A DNA stretch of 64,000 nucleotides. Source: Chondrosia reniformis (Eukaryota; Porifera; Demospongiae; Chondrillida; Chondrillidae). The translations under genes and the position numbers were made by a program. Numbering within the stretch: the first letter of the stretch is position 1; each line of letters opens with the position of its first letter. The notes below the pieces were generated by a model. It saw nothing but the letters and a program-made list of their open reading frames with translations, ran no database searches and was not told the origin of the DNA. This document shows, one piece after another, positions 10,501-56,100 of the stretch. The stretch lies in the NCBI GenBank assembly GCA_947172415.1, contig OX359192.1, positions 7,858,901 through 7,922,900 on the forward strand. Direction: 5' to 3'.

Positions 10501-10708
10501 AAATGTACAGTCTTGCTGAGTCACAGGTAAGCACACCATTATACTACATGAGGCCACCTCTGTAACTATTATACACATGTCATCTTAATTGTAACTCTTA
10601 AATATTTTTATCTGTAGACTACATTATCCAACCTACTTGGTTGAGCTCTTTAAGAAAGCAGTTAAAGTTGAAACAGACGTCTTATTCACAGAAGATACAT
10701 ATTTATGA
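7569..10708 (+). CDS. FANCB: Fanconi anemia group B-like protein
   Basis: In vertebrates FANCB works in the Fanconi core complex with FANCL and FAAP100, supporting monoubiquitination of FANCD2-FANCI at DNA crosslinks. Eleven exons join in frame to 717 residues (human 859): 7569-8372, 8428-8505, 8569-8721, 8858-8900, 9163-9330, 9396-9549, 9630-9724, 9821-10072, 10133-10209, 10288-10526 and 10618-10708. The order of recognisable segments matches FANCB: N-terminal beta-propeller strands including GPSIWGWR (human GPLILWR), VTVMATTLKQLAMFRENGE, RPLIVAVSEEK and SLIIVSNC. Then a coiled coil of about 35 residues (EELQVKKRMQSLNLKKNLL), then VWMRRIGLDIVIGVKCEN (human IWYRVIDDSLVVGVKTTS), C.VFRCKG, and LPLHHSCVSPKGSAYVTVSL. 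The C-terminal exons are only weakly similar. The true start is the ATG at 7569, not the TTG upstream. FAAP100 has a similar fold and is the main alternative. Confidence 0.6.
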
Positions 10709-11079
10709 TATTTTATTCTCATTTGGGTTGACTGTGTCCTTTCAAAAATAAATTTCAGATGTTTCCAAAATCATTTAATCTAGGTCAAATTCACTTGGAT
10801 CATATTTGAGAACACCACAACACTCGAGGAAAAATATCCAAAAATCGATTATTTTTCTTTGACCCAATGTATACGTTTGTCACCTTTTTTCTCTTTCTAC
10901 TTTTGAAGGATGTTTGCACGGAACGAGGTAAGAACCGACTCAATGTGTGTTCTCTGAACCAATTCACGGTTTTAGAACATACCTATGTGTCACAGCTAGC
11001 AAACGTTTACCCTTACAATGTGATGCAGGGCATGCAGCTGTGTATTATTCACATTTCTTCTGTCTACTAGTCTGCGAGC
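10709..11079 (+). other. Intergenic region with a probable 5'UTR intron of the next gene
   Basis: 371 bases between the FANCB-like stop and the next start codon. A strong donor (gaacgag|gtaagaac, about 10926/10927) and an acceptor (tctactag, ending about 11070) ten bases before the ATG suggest an intron in the 5' untranslated region. A poly(A) signal 'caaaaataaat' near 10743 probably ends the FANCB-like transcript. Confidence 0.5.
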
Positions 11080-12495
11080 ATGATTGAGACTGTCTCACTG
11101 GAGTGCCTACTGGTGCATCATAACCTCGAGTACGTAGACCCGGTCTTGGAACTGCTGGAGACGCAGTGGCCTCATGAGAAGGCCATTAGAGAGAAAAGGA
11201 GGCAGTCCATGGTGAATTTATCACGTGATGATCTCCCTTGTCATTTGGTGTTGCTGCAGAATGATGGTGTTAGGAGAGAAGTGATTGGCCATTCCTTACT
11301 GAAGAGGGCAGATGGGAGAAGTGATGGAAAGGCCGCCATTGTGTACTCTGTTGTCATTAAGGAGGACCTCAGAGGCCGTGGACTTGGAAGGAAGCTCATG
11401 ACTGAGACAGAGGACTATGCTCGTTGCCAAGGATATTCTCACCTTTTTCTCTTCACTGATGACCAGGTAAAGTTTTACAAGAGGTTGGACTACCAGGAGT
11501 GTGAGCCTATCACCTCTCTTGGGAGCAACTCAAAGCGACTAACAACAGAACAGGTAGAAGCTTTAGAAAACCTATTTGCAAAAAGATTGGGGAATTCCCT
11601 TCATAGTAAAATGTCATCCCAGACCTGGATGAAGAAGAGACTGATTGAGGAGTATCCCATACAGGGGCCGTACCCTCCACAGGAGATGCCCAATTTAGTG
11701 TTCACGCAAGCAGCTGTGCAACTGGGGCAGGAGATCTCTTACTGTGGAGCAGTCCTCAGTATCCCCTGGCAACAACAGGCTGGGCCTAGCTGTGGGCTTG
11801 TGACTTGTAATATGCTTAGTCGATCACTCTTGAACAGTCCCATTCCAAAATTAAAAGTAGCTCTTGAGCCGTGCTACTGCACTGGACCAGCAAATGTTAA
11901 AATAGCTGGTGAGATAGGTTCAGCCATCAAGATGGCTGCCGAGTTAGGTATCAGTAATGATGGAGAGATGTTTTGTGCCTACAACATGTGCTATTTGTCT
12001 CAGTTGGTTCATGGTGTCTGCTTGGAAGTGAGGGAATCTGGAACGGAGACAAGAGATCAAATTATCTCATCAGTGTTATCAGGGTATCCCTGCCTGGTGC
12101 CATATGACAGAGCAGTGGGGAATCTCCCTACACTTGCTGAAGGCCGACGAGCCCATTGGGCAATAATCAGCGGTATTGTTATTCCATTAGAAACTCCCAG
12201 CAATGATATTGCATGGAACCTTAAGTACTCTTCTGGAGAGCAGTCTTGCATGTTGTTAGATGTTGGTCAAGCTAGCAGTTTTGATAAGGATAATCTGGAA
12301 AAAGTTATTGCTGACCGAAAAGAAAAGGGTCTAATGGTGATTTGTGTCCACGGCATGTCCCCAAAACCATTTGTGTGTCCTCTTGATGAACTAATAAAGT
12401 CCAATGCTAACTTGAACATGCCAAAATCGAAACACTTTAAGGCATCAGCTGGGCTAGAACATTTGAGGGGGAAACTTGTATTTTATGTGCACTAG
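11080..12495 (+). CDS. NAA80-ACTMAP fusion: actin N-acetyltransferase plus actin maturation protease
   Basis: One uninterrupted 471-residue reading frame with two domains. Residues about 1-155 match NAA80 (NAT6), the GNAT enzyme that acetylates the processed actin N-terminus. They show LELLETQWP, IGHSLL, an acetyl-CoA loop RGRGLG (98-103) followed by RKLM, and DDQVKFYKRLDYQ. Residues about 210-425 match ACTMAP (C19orf54), the cysteine protease that removes the acetylated first residue of immature actin. They show QQQAGPSCGLV with catalytic Cys238, DGEMFCAYNM (295-304), SGYPCLVPYD (334-343) and GRRAHWAIISG with catalytic His359. A linker of about 55 residues carries a short proline patch (QGPYPPQEMP, about 195-204); the long polyproline loop of human NAA80 is not seen. 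In animals the two steps are consecutive, so the fusion makes biochemical sense. The coding part has no intron, unlike every other complete gene of its size here. The ATG at 11080 follows a likely 5'UTR intron. Confidence 0.88.
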   Translation: MIETVSLECLLVHHNLEYVDPVLELLETQWPHEKAIREKRRQSMVNLSRDDLPCHLVLLQNDGVRREVIGHSLLKRADGRSDGKAAIVYSVVIKEDLRGRGLGRKLMTETEDYARCQGYSHLFLFTDDQVKFYKRLDYQECEPITSLGSNSKRLTTEQVEALENLFAKRLGNSLHSKMSSQTWMKKRLIEEYPIQGPYPPQEMPNLVFTQAAVQLGQEISYCGAVLSIPWQQQAGPSCGLVTCNMLSRSLLNSPIPKLKVALEPCYCTGPANVKIAGEIGSAIKMAAELGISNDGEMFCAYNMCYLSQLVHGVCLEVRESGTETRDQIISSVLSGYPCLVPYDRAVGNLPTLAEGRRAHWAIISGIVIPLETPSNDIAWNLKYSSGEQSCMLLDVGQASSFDKDNLEKVIADRKEKGLMVICVHGMSPKPFVCPLDELIKSNANLNMPKSKHFKASAGLEHLRGKLVFYVH

Positions 12496-14392
12496 CATAC
12501 AATAGATATGGTTAATATGGACAAGTTTATCATAAAATTATATTTACATAATTTATATTTTCTAGTTTTATAATGATTATCATTACTAATTAACATTGAA
12601 TTTAATCGTTGATTACAGCAATATCAGAATGAATAATTAATACATTCAGCTCACTCAAACTTTAACCTTGAAAGTGTCTTTGCTGCATGTATCTACATAT
12701 GTGTAAGTTGAGAAGAGATATGCATATATAGTTACTATTGATTGATGCTACAATTATACTTGACCATGCAGTTTTTGAATAATTATAATTGTGACTATCA
12801 CTCCCATTATATAATAATTATAATTTGCAAGTGACTATATCACTTCCATTATATAATTAGATGTTTAATCCCACACGTACACTTTCTTTTAGAAGAAAGG
12901 CTTATGCATGCTCTAGCACTATTAACGAATCATTCATCTCCATCGGGGAAGGCAAGGAAGCCAATGCTCATATGTTCATACAGAAGGAAAGGTCAATGTT
13001 CATACAGAAGGGAAGGTCAATGTTCACACAGATGAGAATATATATACGTATATACACTAAGTCCTGTTTTTCACATTGTAGGCCTGCTTCGATCTTTAAT
13101 TTTATTATGATAGTTCATTTAATTGTTCAATTCATTCATTTATTAGTTAGGCTTAGGATATAAGTTAATAATTCTACTTAGAATTGGATTACTAGACTGT
13201 TACAATAGCAATGTTGTTATAAGTGCTGTCATGGCGATGTCTATTGTAATAAATATTGTTCAGTTATACACTCCTCAGAGGGTAAAACCATACAATTATA
13301 TCACATGCACATACATACATATAGGTGGTACATATATATGTAGATATATGTATAACAAATACTCACTTACAAACATTGTACTTTTCTCCATTGTAGACCT
13401 GCCATCGATATGGATCAAGGGATACAATTTATCTGTGTGTCATATTTACTTTAAAGCAAATGTATATATACATCCAAGCATGTATTTATCTGTTTTATGA
13501 CCAAGTATATATCGATTTTGCCTGAATTGTGCAAAGTCTATATAGTTTCTTTTATATATCAATCAAACATCAATCAAATATGTCTGACCCAAAGTGAAGC
13601 CATAAAATTACCTTAGCATACATTACATTACATTAAATAGCATTATAAAAATAATATATGCGCAGTCACCCAAGCATTAGCACATTTAAGAAAGGAAGAA
13701 TTTATGCATATAATTTGATTAATGAATTTGCCAATTAGACATTGTTATATGTGTGGATATAAACAAAGAAGTAAACTACAGTTTATTTGGCTAAACCACT
13801 AAATTGCCCTATATATACATAGCTTTGAAATTTACAAGATATTCTTACTATGCTGGGTATTTCTTAATGAATTTGTTCTATGTAAGTAAAGTGGGAATTA
13901 TTATTGGAATGCATTTACACTTCAATGTTATCCTTAAAACAGTCTAGCTCCAAATTTACGCACCTAGCTACTCACTTGGAGTAAGTTGAGAAATCACTGT
14001 TTGCATTATAACATGAGTAGGTGGAGCAGAGTTGCAAAGCCAGCCAGACAAGTTAATGGTGATGTGTGAATGGCCACCATGGTGTGGATAATCAATCTTT
14101 GTTTCCAATGGTGATGAAATCAATTTGTAGAAATTCCTGCTTCACAGTTTTCTGAACAAATATACGTATGCAGTTATATGTTCTAATAGAAATTTTTATG
14201 ATCTGGGTGTGTCACAGTGGGGGCGATGGCGTTTGACCCTCACGTGACCTTGCAAAAGCAACATTCAAATCGTTCGTATAGAGGTATAGCGAGGGAGTGG
14301 CTTAGAGGTTAGTTTAGATGGCCTCGGGTTGCTTTTAGTATTTAGGACTAGTCTTAGAGCAATGGAATAAATAATATACTCGAGTAACAACA
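12496..14392. other. Long non-coding stretch, no gene seen
   Basis: About 1.9 kb of AT-rich sequence between the actin-processing fusion and the LRRK2-type gene. It contains near-repeats of 'ataattataatt' at 12780-12860 and three imperfect copies of a 30-bp unit with 'atgttcatacagaagg' at about 12970-13035. Open frames here are short, low-complexity and lack convincing splice partners. The last 200 bases (about 14190-14392) are more GC-rich and probably include the LRRK2-type promoter. Confidence 0.6.
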
Positions 14393-20300: not shown

Positions 20301-23300
20301 TGTACCCATATTTCATATGCTGTACCCATCTTCCACGTGCTGTACCCATCTTCCACGTGCTGTACCCATCTTCCACGTGCTGTACCCATCTTCCACGTGC
20401 TATACCCATCTTCCACGTGCTGTACCCATCTTCCACGTGCTATACCCATCTTCCACGTGCTGTACCCATCTTCCACGTGCTGTACCCATCTTCCACGTGC
20501 TGTACCCATATTTCATATGCTGTACCCATATTTCATATGCTGTATGTGATGTAGGTATACAGTTGAAGTCATTTCTCTTGACCTGCCTACTCTGTAATTT
20601 GGATTTGTTTGACAAAGTCTCCAAGGAGATGTGTGTATTGCTTGCTAGATCGCTTGTCAAGTGTCTCCTTGAGTGGAGTAGAGAGAAGGACATGCTAAGA
20701 CAGGTTTGTTACAGGTGCTGTATGCCGCTTGGGAAACTCTGATATACGTATATAATAATACACAAGTATGACACTGATTTAACTATAGAGGTATGCATTT
20801 CCTTGTATATATATTGTGAAATGGTCCTATGTACATATAATATAATATATATGTATGTGTATATATATAATATATGTATATAGGGAGTATACTGTTTAAG
20901 GATGGCCTGTCACATGTCTGACAACCTCTCTGAGGGTCTGGTTGAGGGAGGAATCCATCTTGTGCTGATGCACATGTTACAGATGGAGCAGAATGAGGTT
21001 GAAATTGACAGTGAAAGTGAAAATGGTACAATGCCTATCACAGTCACACCTACGTACACACCAGTTCACCAGTACACCAACACACCTGCCCGTGGTCCAC
21101 ACTTATAGCTGATGTTTGTCCGACTGTATCTCTCAGGTGTTCTATCGGAAATGGTGGTTGACATAATCTGCACTCTCTGTACAAAAGACTATCGTAACCA
21201 GCTGCTCCTAGCTATGGTGAAGGATGGGTTTCTAGAAGGCGTACAGATCCTGGTTGATGATTTGGGAGCCGATGTAGATTGCGAAAGGGATGGTAACACT
21301 CCAATTTGTCTGGCAGTAGAGTACAAATATAAGAACATTGTCAAGTATCTACTCAGCAAGGTAAGAGATTTTCTGAATCCTCTCCATCTTACCTTCCCCT
21401 CCTATCTGATTGTCAGCTAACAAGAGAGTAAGATATTCATGCAACTATAACTAAGTTTATATATATGTGAATGTAGGTTGCAACCATTAACTGTCTCCAG
21501 AGGGCTATAGACCTGGCCTCTCGACCCAACAGACGGGACGATGGGATCATGGGGCTGCTGCTGGCTCACTGGGCCCAGGACAACAGAGGGAGCAAGAGTG
21601 AGTGATGAAAGTCCTCGTGTTTTAGTGCATATTGCACATGTCGTCTGATGCCCTTGAGGACTGCCATAACTCTTATGGTTGTCCACAGATGACACACTGT
21701 CTCTTAGTGGACTTGGTCTGCCAGAGGTTCCCTCAGAGTGGATTCTTCCTGCTCTGGGTGAAGTGATGGAAGCATTCCAAGATTCTCTCTCGAGCAGCAA
21801 GAGAGGGTCAATTGGGTCCGTGTTTGAAGCTCTTAGAAGGAGATCTCGGCATTCAATCAGCGACATGCGGTTGCCCCTGGATGAACTAGATCGACTTAAG
21901 AATTTATCCCCCATTTCTCAACCCAATTTTGGTGATGACAATGGCATAGTGAATAGAAGAAGAAGAAAGCCTGGTAGATCACTAACCTCGCCATCCTTAC
22001 ACTTGCATATACTAGCACCTTCCACTAGATCAAGACACACCTCTTGCCTGTCTCCCATTATCCACTCACCCAAAGAACATATGTACGCTGACACTGGACC
22101 ACAATCAAATAAAGAATCCCTAGAGATACAGGCAGCTCACTCAAGCAGTTCATCTATGGAGGAGTTGGGTGGTAACCATGATTACCCGCAGGAGGTGGCC
22201 TCTGATAGCCCCTCCCCATCCCCCTCCTCCTCCATTGAAGATGAGGTTGAAGAAGAAGTGTTTGAGGAGATCACTTCTCAGCACAATGCAAGCGTGTCTG
22301 GTGCCATTCTTCCTGATATCAGTGACATTAAGTCTAGCTTCACAAAATATGAAGATAAAGCATTCTTACCTGTAAGTCCCGAGTTGATCAGAAGAAGTGT
22401 TTCCCAAAACAAGGCAGATCACCCTAACCAGGAGTCGTTGGATGGTAATGTATCTGAATATGACGGAGAACTGTCCTTCCTACCCTCCGAAGGAAGCACT
22501 CCCTCCTCTCGGTCCAGCAGTCGAAGGACCAGCTGTGACACAGTTGAGATGTCACGCTACCAGCACCTGCTTTCCTTGGTAATTCAACGGCTGGACCTCT
22601 CTTCAAACACTCTTCAGTCAGTGGATGGGCTGTGCAACCCCAGTGTACTCAAGAGATTAAGAGGACTAAAGAGTCTTAGCCTCAACCACAACCATTTGGA
22701 TAACCTCAGTGTGACTTTGTTCAAGGTAGGGCACAATTGTTGCTTGTGTGTGCTTGTTACTTTTGTTGTGAATAATTATGGGATGCTGTTATTTATGTTT
22801 GCTTGTTACTTTTGTTGTGAATAATTATGGGATGCTGTTATTTATGTTTGCTTGTTACTTTTGTTGTGAATAATTATGGGATGCTGTTATTTATGTTTGC
22901 TTGTTACTTTTGTTGTGAATAATTATGGGATGCTGTTATTTATGTTTGCTTGTTACTTTTGTTGTGAATAATTATGGGATGCTGTTATTTATGTTTGCTT
23001 GTTACTTTTGGTACTGCCAATTTGTTGTGAATAATTATGGGATGCTGTTATTTATGTTTGCTTGTTACTTTTGGTACTGCCAATTTGTTGTGAATAATTA
23101 TGGGATGCTGTTATTTATGTTTAGGAACTGGTAAACCTGGAGCTCCTGGATGTAAGTCACAACAGACTGTTGACATTTCCCGTGGCCATCTTCTCCTGTG
23201 AGAAGCTTTGTGAGTTGGATCTGACGGCCAACCAGATTGGAGACATTCTACCACCTCCAAAGAGAATGGAGAACCTCACGCTACTGAGGATGGGACACAA

Positions 23301-32912: not shown

Positions 32913-35900
32913 TCAATAATCTAAAATCCACACACTGGAACACATACCACATACACACACACACACTTGCATACTCACAAGTTCAGTAGTTCTTTCGTAC
33001 ACAAAATGTTGATTAATGTTCTCAACTAAAGGTTGCCCTACCACCCCATATGGGTGGGGAGTCTTTGTCACACAGCTTACAAAAAAGTTGTAAGCAGGGC
33101 TCACTGAGGCCAGTGCTTGTATTGTGAAGTTAATCCTATAGTGATTTTACATACAGTGTATATAATATCAATTAGGGAATGCACATTACACAATTGTTGT
33201 AAACCATCAAAAGTTTGAACAAATTCTACCCTGTTATGAAGACCTTATTATAGCATTAATACCAGCTAGGCATTAACACTAGAATGTAGACATGGTTCTG
33301 ACATGGAACGTGTACTGTGTGTACTGCAGTGGAAATTAACAATCTCAAAAGATAAAAGCCTGTTTCAATGTATGCTAGAAATCACCTCTTTTCAAGGGAC
33401 ACGAATATCCTCACTCTCTTTGGCGTAAAGTGATTTCCAAGCACTTTTTGGACACTCTTAAGGAAAGCCACAGTCAAATCATTATTGTATATAACTGTTA
33501 TTACGTATATAGAGACATTATGCATAAGGTATGCACTGGTTAACATATAATTTATATAATAACCTCACCATCAGAGGCAATAATAATGTCCACCTTTTTC
33601 AGATACTCTACATCCTCATTACTCCATTCATATTCACCATTACCTATAGCACAAATGATGTCATATTTGCATAATGAATTACGTACTAATAATTGTTTCT
33701 CATTTATAACTTTGTATGATTACTAATAAAGCAGACTAGCTTAAGTGATACCTCTAAGGTACACATACATACATATATACCTGTGGACTCTTGTAAGGTG
33801 TTTAAAAACAGGTGCAAAATTCACCATAATTCAAACCTGTTGTCCAATCAAATTCTCTGACCTTTACTTTACCTGTAAACCATAAAAAGAGGATTTTCAT
33901 ATATCATAAATATAAATAACAGTATTTGAAGTTCTGGGGCATACCTTTGAGAAGATGGGAATTTCTGCACAAATTTTCACCACAAAGGTCTAGTATTTCG
34001 TGTTTATTCAAATCTAGTTGATGTAAGCATTCAGTGTATACATGTAGTCCTGTTATGTATGGCTTACAAATTAGAAGCCATGTAACAGCTGTAATATTAG
34101 CCCTGACATTAAGCCACTACTACCTGTCGTAAACAAGGCTGTACTCAGTCTACACTAAGGATGGGAGCACATTGTTATTGAATGGGCTTTTCTGTACATC
34201 AAAGGAAGCTCTACAGGTTGGTTGCCTTGGAAACTAACCTTTTCATTAGCCTAACATAGCTTCATGTTGTCACACAATTTGTGGCAACAGAAAAATATAT
34301 GCACATTGGAACCACACCAACATTGCATACATTGCAACAAATGAGCTCTATTCTGCGATGGTAGTATAAATTATCTGTCAATGTACATGTCTTTTAACTA
34401 GGGGAGAACACTTTTTAAACCTCTTATCCCTCAAGTTACCCAACTCAAGGTCAAAATGTATCCCTCAAGTTACCCAACTCAAGGTCAAAATGTATCCCTC
34501 AAGTTACCCAACTCAAGGTCAAAATGTATCCCTCAAGTTACCCAAATCAAGGTCAAAATGTATCCCTCAAGTTACCCAACTCAAGGTCAAAATGTATCCC
34601 TCAAGTTACCCAACTCAAGGTCAAAATGTATCCCTCAAGTTACCCAACTCAAGGTCAAAATGTATCCCTCAAGTTACCCAACTCAAGGTCAAAATGTATC
34701 CAAACTAAACTTATTTCAATAATTTGAGAAAACAGTAAAACTATCACTTATTTGAGGAAACCAGTTTAGGTAACACCAACACACAATTACCACATGCCAA
34801 CTCAGCACTTTATAGTGTACACAACACAATTGGCTCAGTTTTGTGGCCTGTCTTACCTTCCTATTGTCCCTAACATTAGACAAGAAGTGGAAAAGGTCTT
34901 GACCAGATACTACTAGATAGCAGCTGTCCACACTACCCATGCAGCCTGGTGTATTCCAACTCACCTGTTGCGTAGACTAGCTGTGAGTACATCCCTGCAA
35001 TTAAACTGCAAAATCCTATTCCTGCACCCAAATCTAGAACTGTGCATCTTGAAAACCTACATGCACAACAAATCCTGTGATTTTGTTGCCAGGAGCAAAT
35101 GTGGTTGAACGTGACCACAGAATTTCAATAGCCAGATGTGATGAATGTTTCAGCAATTAAAACTTGTAATTCTTGTTTTTCTGCAAATTCAAAGGCTTCT
35201 AAAGTTACACAATTAACAAGTGTATTTTTGGCTATGCTTAGGGCAGGATTTTCAGCTGCTTACAATTTAGTGTTGTTGAGAATATAATCTGCCAAATAGA
35301 GTGAGCCCTTCCAAAGCTGAAGAGAAAGAAGTCTATACATTGTTACCAACTGGACCGAACAACCGAATGCAGTTACATCCTGTTTAGCAGACATAAGGGT
35401 CTTAGCGCTTGGAATGACTGGCTTGTCTAGTCTTAAACATAAAAGAATAATCTAAACATTTTCCCGCATAGTATCTCTACAGTAAAAGGCCTATAAGGAA
35501 CTACACCAAGTGAGAGCTATGGATGAGGATACAAGAGTCTTCTTTTTATTCTTCTGCTCCACTGGGCCAATGTAAGAGATACAACCATGCTCAAGGTGCT
35601 ACTAGTCCAGATAGATATTTGTCATCACCCCAGACATTGCATGACAATGTTTGAGATCTGATCTGATCATCAGCTACAACTGACAGTGACGATCAGCCAC
35701 ACATGTTGATGTTAGCTGACTAAAGATTCCGATGAGGGGGCTGTAGAGGCATGCGCATGCGGCTTCCCAATCTCACCTGAAGACCAACTTGTGTGAGTAA
35801 GGTAGTCATTGCATGCTCTAAATAAGGAGGAGAAAGGCTTCATAACACCAATAGATAGTATGAATGTAATTTAATACAGCGGAAAGGTTTTTCTTATGTC

Positions 35901-39966: not shown

Positions 39967-40593
39967 ATGTCTTCAAGCGTCGGCTTCAAAGGTTTAATTG
40001 ACACCATGGACGCCTTGCCGAAAAAGGGTTACTACTTCGGCTCCATCAGCATTCGAGAAGCAGAGAGCATACTGGCCTCAGAACCAAACGGGGCTTTCCT
40101 TGTCAGAGATGCTTCCGAAGAAGAAGCGAGGCATTTTGATACGTACTGCATAACGTTCAAGTTGCAGAACCGCTACGGTTCCATTCGGGTGGATTTTTCG
40201 AAGGGATATTTTTCGTTGTCCATGGCCGATAAGGAAATGCCCATGTTTCGTACGATGATGTCCCTTGTGGAGAGGTACGTGAGGATGTCCCAATCCGGGG
40301 AAGCCGTCTGTCGCTTAACGGGACACGTTCCAGATAGAGAAGTAGATTTATTTCTTAGGAAGCCAGTAAATCGTTTGAAGGGTGTTCATTCGCTGCAGCA
40401 TCTCTGCCAGGCAACCCTACATAAGAATTTTACAAGAGACAAATTAGAAGCCATCAGCTCTTTGCCCAAGAACCTTGAGCCTTACCTTCTCAAGAGCCCG
40501 TACTTCGACCAATCGTTGTATCTCGCCGCCGTCTCCAAGGAGCAAACGGAACCATCCGTGGACCAGAATAGCGAGGGACTAACTAAAAATTGA
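39967..40593 (+). CDS. SOCS-family SH2/SOCS-box protein
   Basis: Cytosolic E3-ligase adaptor: the SH2 domain binds phosphotyrosine and the SOCS box recruits elongin B/C and a cullin-5 ligase. The coding region is one exon of 208 residues. SH2 spans about 21-115: GYYFGSISIREAESIL, the phosphotyrosine Arg47 in FLVRDAS, then TFKLQNRYGSIRVDFSKGYF. The SOCS box is at about 139-175: HSLQHLCQATLHKNF (BC box with LxxLC) and LPKNLEPYL. A kinase-inhibitory region like that of SOCS1/3 is not evident. The ATG directly follows a strong acceptor (ttttactctgtag), and a donor lies at about 39895 (aaat|gtaagt), so an upstream exon is expected, probably 5'UTR. It starts 290 bases after the ATPAF2 stop. A SOCS4-7-type assignment is not attempted. 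Confidence 0.88.
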   Translation: MSSSVGFKGLIDTMDALPKKGYYFGSISIREAESILASEPNGAFLVRDASEEEARHFDTYCITFKLQNRYGSIRVDFSKGYFSLSMADKEMPMFRTMMSLVERYVRMSQSGEAVCRLTGHVPDREVDLFLRKPVNRLKGVHSLQHLCQATLHKNFTRDKLEAISSLPKNLEPYLLKSPYFDQSLYLAAVSKEQTEPSVDQNSEGLTKN

Positions 40594-41837: not shown

Positions 41838-42497
41838 TCAGGTGGTTGGTGGACAGTAGTCAGTCAAGTAATCTTTCAAGTTCTGCGGCAGTGGCAAGTC
41901 AGGGCACTGGTAAGGTTTGTAGTGTATTCTTCTCAAGACAGCTAATCTACTAAGGTGTTGGAGGGAGGGAACTACATGCCACAATGGGTTTCTTAGCGTC
42001 ACTGTCTCTTCTTCATTGTCATCTGTTGTAATAACAAAATCTTTATTCTTTCCATTACGGTAATATTCAATTAACTCTACAACAGTGTGAAATCCTGGAA
42101 GATCGGGGAAAATGGAGTCCAGCTTGAAATTCCCACGACTAAAACTGACACGTATATTTTGAACACCATTTGATGTCTTTACACACAGAGTGAACAAGTG
42201 ACACGCATCTGTGCTATCCCTTAGCAAAAAGGTTCCTTGAGAGACATTGGATAATAAATTTTGCGCTTCTTCTTTGGAAATCTTACCATAGTACCATCCG
42301 CTGTCTTTCAAGTTACGCAATACATCAGCAATACTCATTCGTAGTTTGTTATTCTGCGACCTCGCTCTGTTACCGCACTGCCTCGTCGTAACCACCGACG
42401 AACTAGACGGATTTTCCACATCTAACTCTACATATGAGTGTCTTCTCGGTTTTTCTGATACACTAACTTCAGCGTAGGCGCACATTAAGAGATCCAT
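41838..42497 (-). CDS. SOCS-family SH2/SOCS-box protein (CISH/SOCS2-like)
   Basis: Single-exon coding region of about 219 residues. The first true ATG is at 42497; the reading frame extends nine codons further up without an ATG, to an in-frame stop. SH2: SGWYYGKISKEEAQNLLS, Arg93 in TFLLRDS, LFTLCVKTSNGVQNIRVSFSRG and FHTVVELIEYY. SOCS box at the end: PSLQHLSRLAVLRRI and LPLPQNLKDYL, the canonical elongin-binding and cullin-box pattern. Length and layout (short N-terminus, SH2, SOCS box) resemble CISH/SOCS2, which damp cytokine receptor signalling in vertebrates. The partner in this animal is unknown. It shares an intergenic region with the ankyrin-SOCS gene and is tail-to-tail with another SOCS gene. 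Confidence 0.88.
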   Translation of the reverse strand: MDLLMCAYAEVSVSEKPRRHSYVELDVENPSSSSVVTTRQCGNRARSQNNKLRMSIADVLRNLKDSGWYYGKISKEEAQNLLSNVSQGTFLLRDSTDACHLFTLCVKTSNGVQNIRVSFSRGNFKLDSIFPDLPGFHTVVELIEYYRNGKNKDFVITTDDNEEETVTLRNPLWHVVPSLQHLSRLAVLRRIHYKPYQCPDLPLPQNLKDYLTDYCPPTT

Positions 42498-42728
42498 CTG
42501 TAACCGATCCAACGTGCTTGCCACAGACGTTCCTTGCGACTATGACGCTTTGAGGCTTCAAAGGATATCCAAATACTCTCTTCTATTGTGTTTTGGGATT
42601 CGTTGGTAATGAAGGAAGGAACAGAAAACCTTCAAGCAACGTCATTAACGGAATTTCAAGGAAGAGTAGATCCCCGAGTGTCTTAAACCTTTTAGTGGAC
42701 CCCGCCCAACCCTAATATTACTGGCAAA
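42498..42728. promoter_or_regulatory. Shared promoter region, SOCS / ankyrin-SOCS pair
   Basis: 231 bases separate the divergent start codons of two SOCS-box genes. No clear TATA box. Co-expression is inferred from spacing only. Confidence 0.5.
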
Positions 42729-45700: not shown

Positions 45701-46432
45701 GTCCCAAGTATATATGACTGTAGATAGACATCCTCCCACACCTCCATCCTCACCCAGTGGCACCCACACCTCCATCCTCACCCAGTGACACCCACACGTC
45801 CATCCTCACCCAGTGGCACCCACACCTCCATCCTCACCCAGTGGCACCCACACCTCCATCCTCACCCAGTGGCACCCACACCTCCATCCTCACCCAGTGG
45901 CACCCACACCTCCATCCTCACCCAGTGGCACCCACACCTCCATCCTCACCCAGTGGCACCCACACCTCCATCCTCACCCAGTGGCACCCACACCTCCATC
46001 CTCACCCAGTGGCACCCACACCTCCATCCTCACCCAGTGGCACCCACACCTCCATCCTCACCCAGTGGCACCCACACATCCATCCTCACCCAGTGGCACC
46101 CACACCTCCATCCTCACCCAGTGGCACCCACACCTCCATCCTCACCCAGTGACACCCACACATCCATCCTCACCCAGTGGCACCCACACATCTATCCACC
46201 TCTGTCCATAGTCTTATGTATGTTACCTCTAGGTTCTCCTTTGACCCTCAAGGAGATATCAAGACTCGCCTTCCGAAGAAGCATAGGCCCCTATTTTGAT
46301 AAATCAGTTATAGAACAATTAAATATGCCGCATAAGCTGTCAGAATTTCTTCAGTTTGAGACATCTGTAATCTCTAGTCTGCCTGTTACAGCAAATGGCC
46401 CAACAGTCCAATCAGATCGGTCAACATTTTGA
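42729..46432 (+). CDS. Ankyrin-repeat SOCS-box protein (ASB-like), putatively N-myristoylated
   Basis: Three exons (42729-42918, 44617-45198, 46233-46432) join in frame to 323 residues. The N-terminus MGVSNSKC fits the N-myristoylation pattern (Gly2, Ser6, Lys7), with Cys8 available for palmitoylation. Ankyrin repeats include NTLLHMAAIGGKVKCI, HSPLHEAVINNHVGAVRCLL, IAPLHSAAHFGNIHCVQALL, QTPLMLAVIKGHQEVAKQLL, KRALHFACECKDVEMIQILL and STPLEVSIIVGYLPAVYRL. The C-terminal exon carries a divergent SOCS box: LTLKEISRLAFRRSIG followed by LNMPHKLSEFL. Ankyrins would select the substrate and the SOCS box would bind elongin B/C-cullin 5. A membrane-anchored ASB is not something I can name from known families. 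The second intron holds a large 28-bp minisatellite. Confidence 0.85.
45733..46190. repeat. 28-bp minisatellite (about 16 copies) in ASB-like intron
   Basis: Highly homogeneous units, 'ccacacctccatcctcaccc' plus 'agtggcac'. Each unit contains a pyrimidine-rich run followed by CAG, i.e. it resembles a 3' splice site. The true acceptor lies 43 bases beyond the array. Confidence 0.95.
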
Positions 46433-49800: not shown

Positions 49801-52281
49801 GTGCATTTCTGCATGCAACAACGATACGATAGTCTACATCAAAGAGACCGCTGACTGAGAGAAACACAGGAGTTCCTGGAACTGAAACCTGAACAAGTAC
49901 AGTGGATGGGAATGGCAGACATGGATGGGGATGGCAGACATGGATGGGGATGGCAGACATGGATGGGGATGGCAGACATGGATGGGGATGGCAGACATGG
50001 ATGGGGATGGCAGACATGGATGGGGATGGCAGACATGGATGGGGATGGCAGACATGGATGGGGATGGCAGACATGGATGGGGATGGCAGACATGGATGGG
50101 GATGGCAGACATGGATGGGGATGGTAGATTTAAGTGATCTTGTAGAAATGTCTCACTTTTGAGAGAATGGTGAACGCTTCAGGGTCTAGGATGTACACAT
50201 CATGGTGCTCTGTTCCAATGACGAGGCAGCTGATGGCATCAACCTCACTGTGACTCTTGTGAAGGCTCGTTATACAAGTGATCACAGTCAGACGCTTTAG
50301 TGGAGTGTTCCTAAATCTGCTTGCAAAGTTCTGTAGCTCATCAGGGCCCAGTTGGAGAAACCTAATGTCAAACACTAATAGGATTAACAACATCCAATGC
50401 ACTGTAAACACACACAGTCACTTCTGAAACCTCCAGGGCTCCCAGGGCTCCCAGGGCTCCCACAGTGATTCAGTAAGGGTTAATACAATTACCAGTGAAC
50501 CAGTAAAATATAGAAGCTAAATTTTCTTTATAGTTGTCATTAAAGTGCACAAATCACATTTGTGGATACACAGTGTAAGTAATGTATGCAAGTCATGTAG
50601 AACATCCTGAGGTGGCTCACTTTAATGTCCTTACTGTCAATGCACTGGAACCTACTTCACTCCTGGAGGAAAACATAGCAGTGCATAAACAACAACTACT
50701 ATAGCTTCTGCTCACAGACATGCCTTCCCCTCCCCTTCTCCTACTCTCCTAGTCTCCCCACTCCCCTATCCTTATCTATCTCTCTCCTTCTCTCCATCTT
50801 CCTCTTTCCCCTCTTCGCTCTCTCCCTCCCTCCCTCTGTCGCCATCCTATTGTACCTCAAACTCTCCAAATGTTCTCTCAACATGGTCACATCAATCTTG
50901 TCCTAGAAGGAGAGATATCGCAGGTCACATCCATAGCAAAGCAATAGCCATTAACCCACCTCCTTGACCTGAGTCCACAGATCAAGTTCAGATGAGTTTA
51001 CATCCAAACTGGGAATAGTGAACTTGAAGTATGGTCTTAGGTTCTTGTATACGTACACATATGAACCAGATGCCACAGCTACAGCTGAAAAAACGAGACA
51101 CACATTAACCCTAGCTTGTGTATACAGTACTTCAATAATTGGTTAGCAACACAGCCAATAGAGTGGATAATATGGTGGTTACCGTGGTGAATAAAATGGT
51201 TGTCAAGGTGAATATGGTGGTTGTCATGGCGAGTTGCCATGGTGAATTCAGGATACCTGGTGTTCGTGGTACATTGCTGTCCATGTAAAAACTGCATAGT
51301 CCAGTAGGAAGGTCCAGGAGTGGTGTCTCCATTGTAATCTGTGTCCCTATTGGAGAGAGACATCGCTGAACAAGTGAGTTGCTAGGCACCTTGGCCCTGA
51401 TTTGATTTACGAAGGCATCTCTTTAACTGGAACACATAAAAGTTTAAAGAGCATCCAAAATACTATGTTATGTGAAGGAACCTTTGAAAACCTTCAACTT
51501 TGCATCAAAACTGCCTGTTCCCAAATCACCAACCAGAAGCTGTCGACAAGAAAGTAATGAGAGGTTAGTTAGTAATGAGAGGTTAGCTAGTAATGAGAGG
51601 TTAGCTAGTAATGAGAGGTTAGCTGGTAATGAGAGGTTAGCTTGGATAAAAGAGAAAAAGTCAGTAATTTGACCAAAAAAATTCATTTAATGTATTGTAA
51701 ACTTTTATGGTCGCAAACAACTTCCAGACTTTCTTAGACCAACAATTTGATAATTAACATTATTATTTAATAATTATTTAATAAGAGCTTGGTCTATTCT
51801 CACAAACCTTAGTGTCTCCATCGCCATACAAGTCATCAAGGGCTTTTGGGGAGATGAAATGTGTCAGCCATTTTCACAGTCAAATGTGATAGATAAAACT
51901 CACTGATACAAGAAGAGAATGTGTAGATGGAAGCCAAAGGATCGTAGTGGGCATTCAGCCATGCATTGTCGTCAGAAGGCCTGCAGTTGAATGCATACCA
52001 ACAAAGTCTACACATGATATCTGATAAAACCATAAAATCCTCTTCTATCTTATCAAATTCCTTCTCTAAATTATCATTTGTGCTATGTCATACAGTTGAA
52101 CAGAAATGGAAAACATCTCTTTCTAGTATTGACCCCCTCTAAATGTCTTCACGTTAAAACATAATGTTCACCTTTCCTTGGAAGTGGATGCAGGTATTTC
52201 AGCTTCTCTCGTATCCACGCTGTTATTCGTGTTCGTGTTGCTAGAAATGGGAGGAGGCGGTGCAGCAGGTGCGGTTGCCAT
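46816..52281 (-). CDS. BBS1: Bardet-Biedl syndrome 1 protein, BBSome subunit
   Basis: BBSome coat component that carries membrane cargo in cilia and binds ARL6/BBS3. Many short exons on the minus strand. Start ATG 52281 ([11 protein letters not shown]). Family matches: [19 protein letters not shown] (human KWLDAHYDPMANIHTFSAC), [61 protein letters not shown] and [10 protein letters not shown]. Then [19 protein letters not shown] and [68 protein letters not shown] and [18 protein letters not shown] (C-terminal adaptin-ear-like domain). The final exon is [17 protein letters not shown], with its stop at 46816-46818. An N-terminal beta-propeller followed by a gamma-adaptin-ear domain is expected. 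Introns hold a 19-bp and an 18-bp minisatellite, a (TG)n run near 49096, an 11-bp 'gggctcccagg' repeat near 50435 and a long pyrimidine tract. Ciliated cells are implied. Confidence 0.93.
47095..47235. mobile_element. MITE-like element related to the one at 25440
   Basis: 'gaacatctagagacacagtt' followed by 'tgtttcttg' at about 47114 is approximately inverted at about 47193-47223 ('caagaaacaaattgctcaaa' then 'agactcaag'). The left end shares 'catctagag.cacagtttgt' with the element at 25458. Located in a BBS1 intron. Confidence 0.45.
49905..50125. repeat. 19-bp minisatellite in BBS1 intron
   Basis: About eleven nearly identical units of 'atggggatggcagacatgg'. It is open in several frames on both strands, giving false ORFs. 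Confidence 0.95.
50700..50855. repeat. Polypyrimidine (C/T) tract in BBS1 intron
   Basis: About 150 bases on the plus strand, almost only C and T (cctccccttctcctactctc and similar), so the sense transcript has a long purine run. Strand asymmetry like this can form triplex/H-DNA. Confidence 0.8.
51540..51650. repeat. 18-bp minisatellite next to a BBS1 splice acceptor
   Basis: About five units of 'agtaatgagaggttagct'. On the minus strand the array leads directly into the acceptor (ttcttgtcgacag) of the LLVGDLG exon. Confidence 0.9.
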
Positions 52282-53141: not shown

Positions 53142-56100
53142 TCATTTCATAAAATCCAGCACTGAGATTTTCTTGGTGAGATTTTGCTCTGGAAAGAGAA
53201 AGCTCCTAAGTATTTCATCTAGCTCTGCAAGAGCATCCAATGCATGGTCCTTTGTTAGTTCATCCACAGTCTGGTTCTCTACAGCTTTCAGTGTCCGATA
53301 CAAATCCAATAGTATGTCCTGCAACACCTACAATATTATCAAAAACATGGCCGCCCTATTCAATGTATATACAGTACCACATATAACTGACTACCACTGT
53401 ATCTGTGCCAAGCCCTCCCAACATGGACTTAATGACGAGTAGACTAGCTCTTTTGACCTCCTCATCCACCTCCACCTGTAGAACTTGTTTGATGACAGAC
53501 AAGGCCTGCAATATATATAACATTTAAAAATGTAAACTGAGAGAAGTTTCTATATGTATGAATAATTAAAGTAATAATTAAACCACAAGCATCTATTATT
53601 CTCAAACATCATTAAGAGGTAAAACACGAAAGAAGCAATTGCAGCTGGTTATGGCTACTAGTGCTCTGCCACTGAGCTACAATCGCCACAGCAACGCTCC
53701 ATTGACATATGACAATCATAATGTAATAGGGTTCATTGAGGGACACTTCTTCTGTAAAACTACTTATTTAACAATGTTGTGTATCCACTGTAGAGCAAGT
53801 CTTATCAGATCATATTAAAGTCAATGGCCTACACCAACACATGTAGTTTGCCTATGCTCTGAAGAATCTCACCTCATGTAGGATATTTGGTAGCGAATAG
53901 TGAAGATATCTACACAGTTCTCCAAGATTTGACAAACTGCTGGCACGAATGAGAGCACTATCATCTCTGATGCCACACACAACGGCTTGCATAAAGTGGT
54001 CCATATGCACTGGTAAGGTCTCTCCACAGTTACGAGCTGCCTTCATTAGAGCCTCACCTATCTTCAGTCTAGTCTCTACAGAATGCATTGTATGTGAGAG
54101 ATTTGGGCTTCTCTTCTGAAGTCTTCCCATCTCTTCACTGCACTGTACAGGTTGTGTACCAGAGGACCTGGATGTGAACTCCTTCACAAGCAGCGGGATG
54201 GTTGTATGGGGCTGTGAATGTACTGCACCAACTAGACCCTCAACAGCAGCCAAGTATACAAAGGAATCCGGATGGGACAGGCCGTTGGTGAAGACAGATA
54301 ATACATCTGTTATTCTTTTCACTGCGAGGGTGTCCTTCTGGTACAGCAGTTTGGCAAGCTGCCTCAATCCATGTGCCTTCAGTGGAATTAAATGACTCTT
54401 TGCTTCTCTAATGGACTCTTCTAAAATGGAAGGATCTTCTAAAGGATCATTAGCAGTAAGATTGTTAATAGAAGTGTCCTTGTTGACAGGAGGAGTGTCC
54501 TTGTTGATGGGAGGAGTGTCCTTGTTGACGGGAGGAGTGTCCTTGTTGACAGGAGGAGTGCCCTTGTTGATGGGAGGAGTGTCCTTGTTGATGGGAGGAG
54601 TGTCCTTGTTGACAGGAGGAGTGTCCTTGTTGACAGGAGGAATGTCCTTGTTGACGGGAGGAGTGCCCTTGTTGACGGGAGGAGTGCCCTTGTTGACGGG
54701 AGGAGTGCCCTTGTTGACGGGAGGAGTGCCCTTGTTGACGGGAGGAGTGCCCTTGTTGACGGGAGGAGTGTCCTTGTTGACGGGAGGAGTGTCCTTGTTG
54801 ACAGGAGGAGTGCCCTTGGGCATTGCTGCTTGAGAAAGTTTACGTGTCTCCTTGACAATCTTGTCCTCTGTCCCTTTGGCAGGAGTGAAAGTTGCTCCCA
54901 ATGTGGCTAGACAAATGTGTAGTTCATTGCAAGATGATGCTATTCCCTCAACTGGATGGTGACTACCAAGGTACTGCAGAAGAGTGGGAAGTGGAGAGAG
55001 CAGCTGCCGCTCAGTTCTGTACAGATCATGTTGATTTGCAAGGAGTGCTGACAGAAGACCTGAAGCAATGGTCAGGGAGATATGGTCCCCAAAGACCTCC
55101 CCTCCTTCCTCCAAACCAGCCTCATCTTTCTTCATTCTCTCAACATGTACTGACATTATGGATGCTATGAGGACCAGGAGCCGAGCAGGCTTGGCGTCTC
55201 TCAAGATCCCATCCCCAGCTTCTTCACAAAGACAAGCAACGAGGTAAAGACAAAAGTGATTCCAGCAGTGATCCTCAAAAGTGTTCTCCAATTTATCTTC
55301 TGGTGCTAGTAGTGTGGTAGCTGGTGTCTGTTTCTTGGCAGATGTTGATTGTCCCTCAGTTAGAATGTCTACTAACTCTTTCAGTGAAGCACAAAATATT
55401 GGACCAATTAAAGAGGATGCTTTCAAGTCTGACAACAGCAACTCAACAAGACGCCGAGCTTTTGCTTCCAAGTGATCTATGCCATACTTTTTATCACCCT
55501 CTGCAAGAGCAAATACTGCAATACCTCCCTCATCGCCAAGTTTGAAGGAAGCATTCTTACAAATCTTTTCAAAGACCTGATTCTCCGAGGAAGACTTCCA
55601 TCCAATGCACTGAACAAGACTGTCCAACTGACTCCTGTCACACTGGCCAAGGCAGAAGCTGACTACGCTCCTCAAAGGAGACCTACATCACAAACCCACA
55701 CACATAAGTACAGACATACATTGGTCTCAGAGAAGACAATATTGGGCACTAACTTGAGATGGGATACCGTTCCGCTAGTGAAGACCCACAATTCAAAAAG
55801 GATGGGCAGATACTTGATGGCAGCTGCTAAGAGCAGACTGCCTGGTGGACAGACATTGGTAATCTGTAGACAATAGACAGACATCTGAAACAACATACTT
55901 CTTCTATGCTATAGCAAAAAACCTATAGGGAACTAAACCCAGTGAGACTCAAGTCACCAAGTTTGAAGGAAGCATTCTTACAAATCTTTTCAAAGACCTG
56001 ATTCTCCGAGGAAGACTTCCATTCAATGCACTTGGAGACTTAATTATCAACACTCATGCAATAAAGGAGTAAATTAATCCTTTAAATCTGTCAAGTGAAC

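Follow-up and report, generated by a model that had tools for sequence, protein, structure and literature searches.

An open reading frame joining an NAA80-type acetyltransferase to an ACTMAP-type cysteine protease

One open reading frame of 471 residues, free of internal stop codons, occupies positions 11080–12495 of the plus strand in the 64,000-nucleotide stretch of DNA analysed here (the window); its first part encodes an NAA80-type acetyltransferase and its second an ACTMAP-type cysteine protease. With both enzymes on one chain, a bifunctional enzyme is the simplest reading, and we consider it probable from the sequence that the product is a two-domain enzyme of actin maturation, in which the protease step would precede the acetyltransferase step. 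The first-pass annotation had proposed that two enzymes are fused in one 471-residue frame, and the fusion stands: the frame is unbroken and lies far above the maxima of randomised DNA. Across 100 first-order Markov randomisations of the 64-kb window, the longest open frame reached 191 codons. When the dinucleotides of the frame itself were used to generate 64 kb of sequence, the longest reached 282 codons, and, because none of the 100 randomised copies held a frame of at least 474 codons, the length of this frame is not a product of chance.

The two enzyme halves

The features of the protein are as follows.

11080–11661, plus strand: NAA80-type GNAT half, residues 1–194 (phmmer matches to PDB chains; PF00583, E = 1.6e-13)
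11167–11190, plus strand: start of the alpha1-alpha2 substrate loop, WPHEKAIR, residues 30–37 (alignment with NAA80s)
11371–11388, plus strand: acetyl-CoA motif RGRGLG, residues 98–103 (alignment with NAA80s)
11647–11754, plus strand: inter-domain linker, residues 190–225, with one PP pair (boundaries taken from the domain matches)
11770–12180, plus strand: ACTMAP-like cysteine protease domain, residues 231–367 (PF21646, E = 5.1e-22 in the whole protein)
11791–11793, plus strand: Cys238 in GPSCGL, expected nucleophile (inspection and family comparison)
12154–12156, plus strand: His359 in RRAHWA, expected catalytic base (role by family reasoning)
12259–12261, plus strand: Asp394, candidate third catalytic residue (tentative assignment)

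Residues 1–194 were compared with solved enzymes in the PDB using phmmer. Human NAA80 (E = 2.7e-19) and fly NAA80 (5.8e-17) are followed by the next solved enzyme at 0.0062, so that a gap of some 14 to 16 orders of magnitude separates the solved NAA80s from all other solved enzymes, in agreement with the earlier assignment of this half to NAA80. The acetyl-CoA motif of NAA80 (also NatH) has the form R/QxxGxG/A, which RGRGLG fits. Besides the GNAT core and this motif, the half shares with NAA80 the tryptophan of the substrate loop and a DQ..FY motif together with the segment after it; it differs in being fused to a protease and in two features of the substrate loop. In fly NAA80, the residues that contact actin are W36, R38 and R43 (available text of PMC10318143). 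In our alignment the tryptophan is kept (W30), whereas R38 of the fly enzyme (R107 in human) is replaced by His32. Compared with the fly loop, this one has about four extra residues, and the second contact arginine, R43, therefore has several possible equivalents (R37 or, aligned differently, R40/R41). Lysine and arginine are abundant in the loop, which, together with W30, would suit an acidic N-terminus as substrate. His32 and the insertion argue against strict equivalence to NAA80, since a GNAT survey, in its accessible part, reports good conservation of the substrate loop among NAA80s (PMC7790372).

The second half, residues 195–471, matches PF21646 (ACTMAP-like_C) with E = 1.6e-22 and a score of 80.6 bits, the cut-off being 27. 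This is the one Pfam family above its cut-off, the sole other family listed falling below its own. The match spans 118 of the 121 profile positions and includes Cys238 and His359. In human ACTMAP the catalytic cysteine lies in a GPxCGL motif and the histidine precedes a tryptophan; by inspection, both residues of the window protein fit this pattern. With the score and the catalytic pair in place, the initial ACTMAP assignment is confirmed, as are the positions given for RGRGLG, Cys238 and His359. Asp394 is a tentative candidate for the third catalytic residue. Human ACTMAP also has a proline-rich N-terminal stretch, to which the linker of the window protein offers no counterpart; a further difference is that the protease here sits behind an acetyltransferase. 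The nucleophile of the human enzyme is Cys132, according to the available text of PMC13367750. Searched against PDB sequences, the protease half gave a single match, to a fibre protein (E = 0.68), which we regard as chance. Single-sequence structure predictions, with a mean pLDDT of 33.4 for the whole protein and 37.0 for the protease half, were too poor for fold assignment.

The changes in the substrate loop bear on a reading in which the fusion is real and one domain has drifted, leaving a half that is inactive or has a target other than actin, so that the protein would serve as a scaffold or a one-step enzyme. The loss of the contact arginine to His32 and the longer loop would fit such drift, as would the lower coding score of the protease half (given below). 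Set against this, the cysteine, the histidine and the acetyl-CoA motif have all been retained and both family matches stand well above cut-off, and we judge drift of one half unlikely.

One gene or two products

The frame is probably entered from an upstream exon, predicted from the sequence, whose ATG at 10910 would be the translation start ahead of the frame's own first methionine.

10910–10927, plus strand: predicted first coding exon, MFARNE (ATG, six codons, donor GAG/GTAAGA, in phase with the main frame)
10928–11070, plus strand: predicted intron of 143 bases, ends tttcttctgtctactag
11071–12495, plus strand: main coding exon, including the open frame from 11080, with the stop codon at 12493–12495

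Splicing as predicted adds MFARNESAS ahead of the methionine of the open frame, giving a predicted protein of 480 residues. On a home-made consensus score, 27 of the 4243 GT dinucleotides on the plus strand of the window score at least as high as the predicted donor, itself included; for the predicted acceptor before 11071 the corresponding figure is 77 of 4271 AG dinucleotides, again with the site itself counted. The preceding gene has an apparent stop codon at 10706–10708 and an AATAAA at 10747, which makes it look separate; no Pfam family was matched by its last exons.

Downstream of the start, the question is whether what appears as one protein could be two products, either through an assembly join or as separate proteins made by alternative starts, splicing or polyadenylation. 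For one product, the frame stays open across the linker, and codon usage there resembles that of coding DNA. The coding score of the linker (0.224) is close to that of the NAT half (0.23), and that of the protease half is 0.133; shifted frames of the two halves reach at most 0.035 and reverse-complement frames, one of which was tested per half, at most 0.081. Against one product, the signal declines unevenly along the protein, with the coding score going from 0.28 to about 0.08–0.13 and GC3 from 0.63 to 0.33–0.37, and the shift falls near residue 240, inside the protease half and away from the junction. Against an assembly join, a faulty one would, by reasoning, keep the frame in about one third of cases and would not require an open linker, and no repeats of at least 14 bases were found within 10800–12700.

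For separate products, the linker region offers in-frame ATGs at 11611, 11629 and 11686; in addition, an acceptor-like site ahead of 11683 matches the phase of the first-exon donor, and splicing between the two would yield a form with ACTMAP alone. The protease-coding part contains two internal signals, ATTAAA at 11850, where a message for the NAT half alone could end, and AATAAA at 12393. Beyond the stop codon, no AATAAA occurs before 13248, about 750 bases away. Against two products, neither AATAAA nor ATTAAA occurs between the domains, and the acceptor before 11683 is ordinary, as 1419 of the 4271 AGs score as well. We therefore regard two products posing as one, whether by assembly or by expression, as quite improbable.

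We note that the acceptor-like site in the linker, at 11673–11688, is directly followed by GAG ATG and could give rise to an ACTMAP-only isoform. Such an isoform, arising from the linker ATGs or the acceptor before 11683, is possible on the sequence.

Bacterial proteins with a similar order of domains

A GNAT domain followed by a papain-like fold also occurs on one chain in bacteria, and the available portion of a survey of papain-like proteases reports frequent fusion of DUF3335 proteins to GNAT domains (PMC10318531). We therefore weighed whether the window protein belongs to, or derives from, the bacterial proteins that combine GNAT with a C39-like peptidase (DUF3335) in the same domain order. 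PF11814 was absent from the one record and three genomes of an initial search. Across 274 bacterial genomes, drawn from the class of a Halomonas genome, it lies above cut-off in 45 (47 at E up to 0.001), and in one of 14 control genomes searched alongside. Twelve PF11814 loci were fetched and 11 aligned, L088 being set aside for an open frame that extends far past the gene; all 11 carry GNAT and DUF3335, with GNAT first. Cys-Gly and His-Trp motifs are common to both groups.

The likeness ends at the peptidase. In profile comparison (hhalign), the protease half matched the bacterial GNAT-DUF3335 proteins with a probability of 0.4%, and for the whole protein the GNAT core alone aligned (85.6%), as any GNAT would. 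PF21646 was above cut-off in 0 of the same 274 genomes and 0 of the 14 controls, with one weak match below cut-off (G065, E = 4.2e-4); conversely, PF11814 was not among the Pfam matches of the protease half at E up to 10. A peptide-pattern search, sensitive to close relatives alone, found no relative of either the complete protein or its protease half in genome_contigs or viral_contigs, tblastn found none in phages, and plasmids gave only short GNAT-like stretches in four records. The same viral_contigs, genome_contigs, phage and plasmid searches found no second fused gene for comparison.

With peptidase halves that are not detectably related (0.4%) and PF21646 in 0 of 274 genomes, we reject an origin from the bacterial GNAT-C39 proteins, to which we would give hardly any credence. 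Judged by these comparisons, the order GNAT then papain-like domain arose elsewhere too, and the window protein is outside the GNAT-DUF3335 family.

A further difference is that the bacterial gene often adjoins one for a RimK-like ATP-grasp protein. Pfam confirmed this neighbour, with an RLAN domain, in all three loci scanned (L082, L087 and L092), which were chosen because a RimK-like frame was visible. The RimK-like motif EVNDNP occurs in 7 of the 12 loci and is missing from L084, L085, L089 (short), L090 and L091. The GNAT-C39-like and RimK-like ATP-grasp genes thus form a recurring pair.

Proposed function and genomic setting

Actin ranks with the most abundant proteins of animals. The two-enzyme route to its mature N-terminus was completed only recently. 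In that route, ACTMAP cleaves off the acetylated residue and NAA80 then acetylates the new N-terminus, as set out in the available parts of PMC10318143 and PMC13367750. By analogy with the two families, the C-terminal ACTMAP-type protease of the window protein would clip the acetylated first residue from newly synthesised actin, and the exposed acidic residue would then be acetylated by the N-terminal NAA80-type half with acetyl-CoA as donor. Hand-over of actin could take place from site to site within one chain, or from one chain to another. The reaction order cannot be read from the arrangement of the domains along the chain.

A single chain would make direct hand-over of actin between the two steps possible. 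As a ready tool, a natural fusion could also serve to ask if the two reactions are coupled, if docking to profilin is a layer on top of them, and at what point of animal evolution the route came into being. The first-pass annotation had called the fusion a Rosetta Stone link that would predict the partnership of the two enzymes. The fusion is there, but the predictive gain is small, because the partnership of ACTMAP and NAA80 and the order of their two steps are already published (PMC10318143, in the text available).

Profilin enters through the beta6-beta7 loop of NAA80, which is extended and polyproline-containing in vertebrates and some others and is not a defining feature of the family. 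The window protein has no proline in residues 144–192, which cover this region; overall it contains 5.1% proline and its only PP pair is the one in the linker. Insect NAA80s are likewise without polyprolines (PMC7864067), and the extended loop is absent from fly NAA80 (PMC10318143), as far as the accessible text of these papers goes; at 159 residues, the fly chain in the solved structure lacks a protease half. The suggestion made from the sequence had been that the loop is missing and that coupling to the protease may replace recruitment through profilin. Its first part is correct, but the tie between loss and fusion does not follow: since insect NAA80s lack the loop too, its absence by itself does not mark the fusion as a substitute. 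A more extended proposal is that the protein is a single, profilin-independent bifunctional enzyme that passes actin from protease to acetyltransferase without releasing the unblocked N-terminus, and that the fusion is old in animals and was later split into separate NAA80 and ACTMAP, each with proline-rich profilin docking. Taken as a whole, this proposal appears rather doubtful.

The protein is a fused form of two known enzymes and is, provisionally, new as a fusion. Fused forms may have been remarked on before. We found no report of an NAA80-ACTMAP fusion in the open literature, a scope outside which the founding ACTMAP paper and domain-architecture tables lie. It is not mentioned in the available text of PMC11465159, PMC13367750, PMC10318143, PMC10318531, PMC7790372, PMC7864067 or PMC9500918; within those portions, the sole 'fusion' in PMC13367750 concerns other proteins, and 'domain fusion' in PMC9500918 refers to yeast two-hybrid constructs.

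In Pfam searches, the neighbouring frames matched BBS1, TANGO6, SH2 with SOCS box (in two genes), and LRR, Roc, COR and kinase domains together with an LRRK2-type propeller. The gene content of the neighbourhood looks animal-like, mainly by its SOCS genes, which are known from animals; that the source is a sponge or some other early-branching animal would be no more than a guess. Because the actin-maturation pathway has been described in animals (PMC10318143, available text), this setting favours the actin-maturation reading of the fused gene.

The two SH2 and SOCS-box genes, at 39967–40590 and 41841–42539, lie on opposite strands about 1.25 kb apart, and the SOCS box of the first is below the Pfam cut-off. 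The window is also rich in tandem repeats, with 17 rows at a score of at least 150, some of them overlapping. Near-perfect tandem copies of 49 and 63 bases occur at 22747–23122, at the end of an open frame of the LRRK-like gene (LRR-Roc-COR-kinase, at about 21–32 kb). A 21-base minisatellite of 16.5 copies at 54473–54818 runs in frame within the TANGO6-like frame and encodes a seven-residue repeat of the TPPVNKG type. More long and nearly perfect minisatellites are found at 45735–46197, 34425–34701 and 49903–50128.
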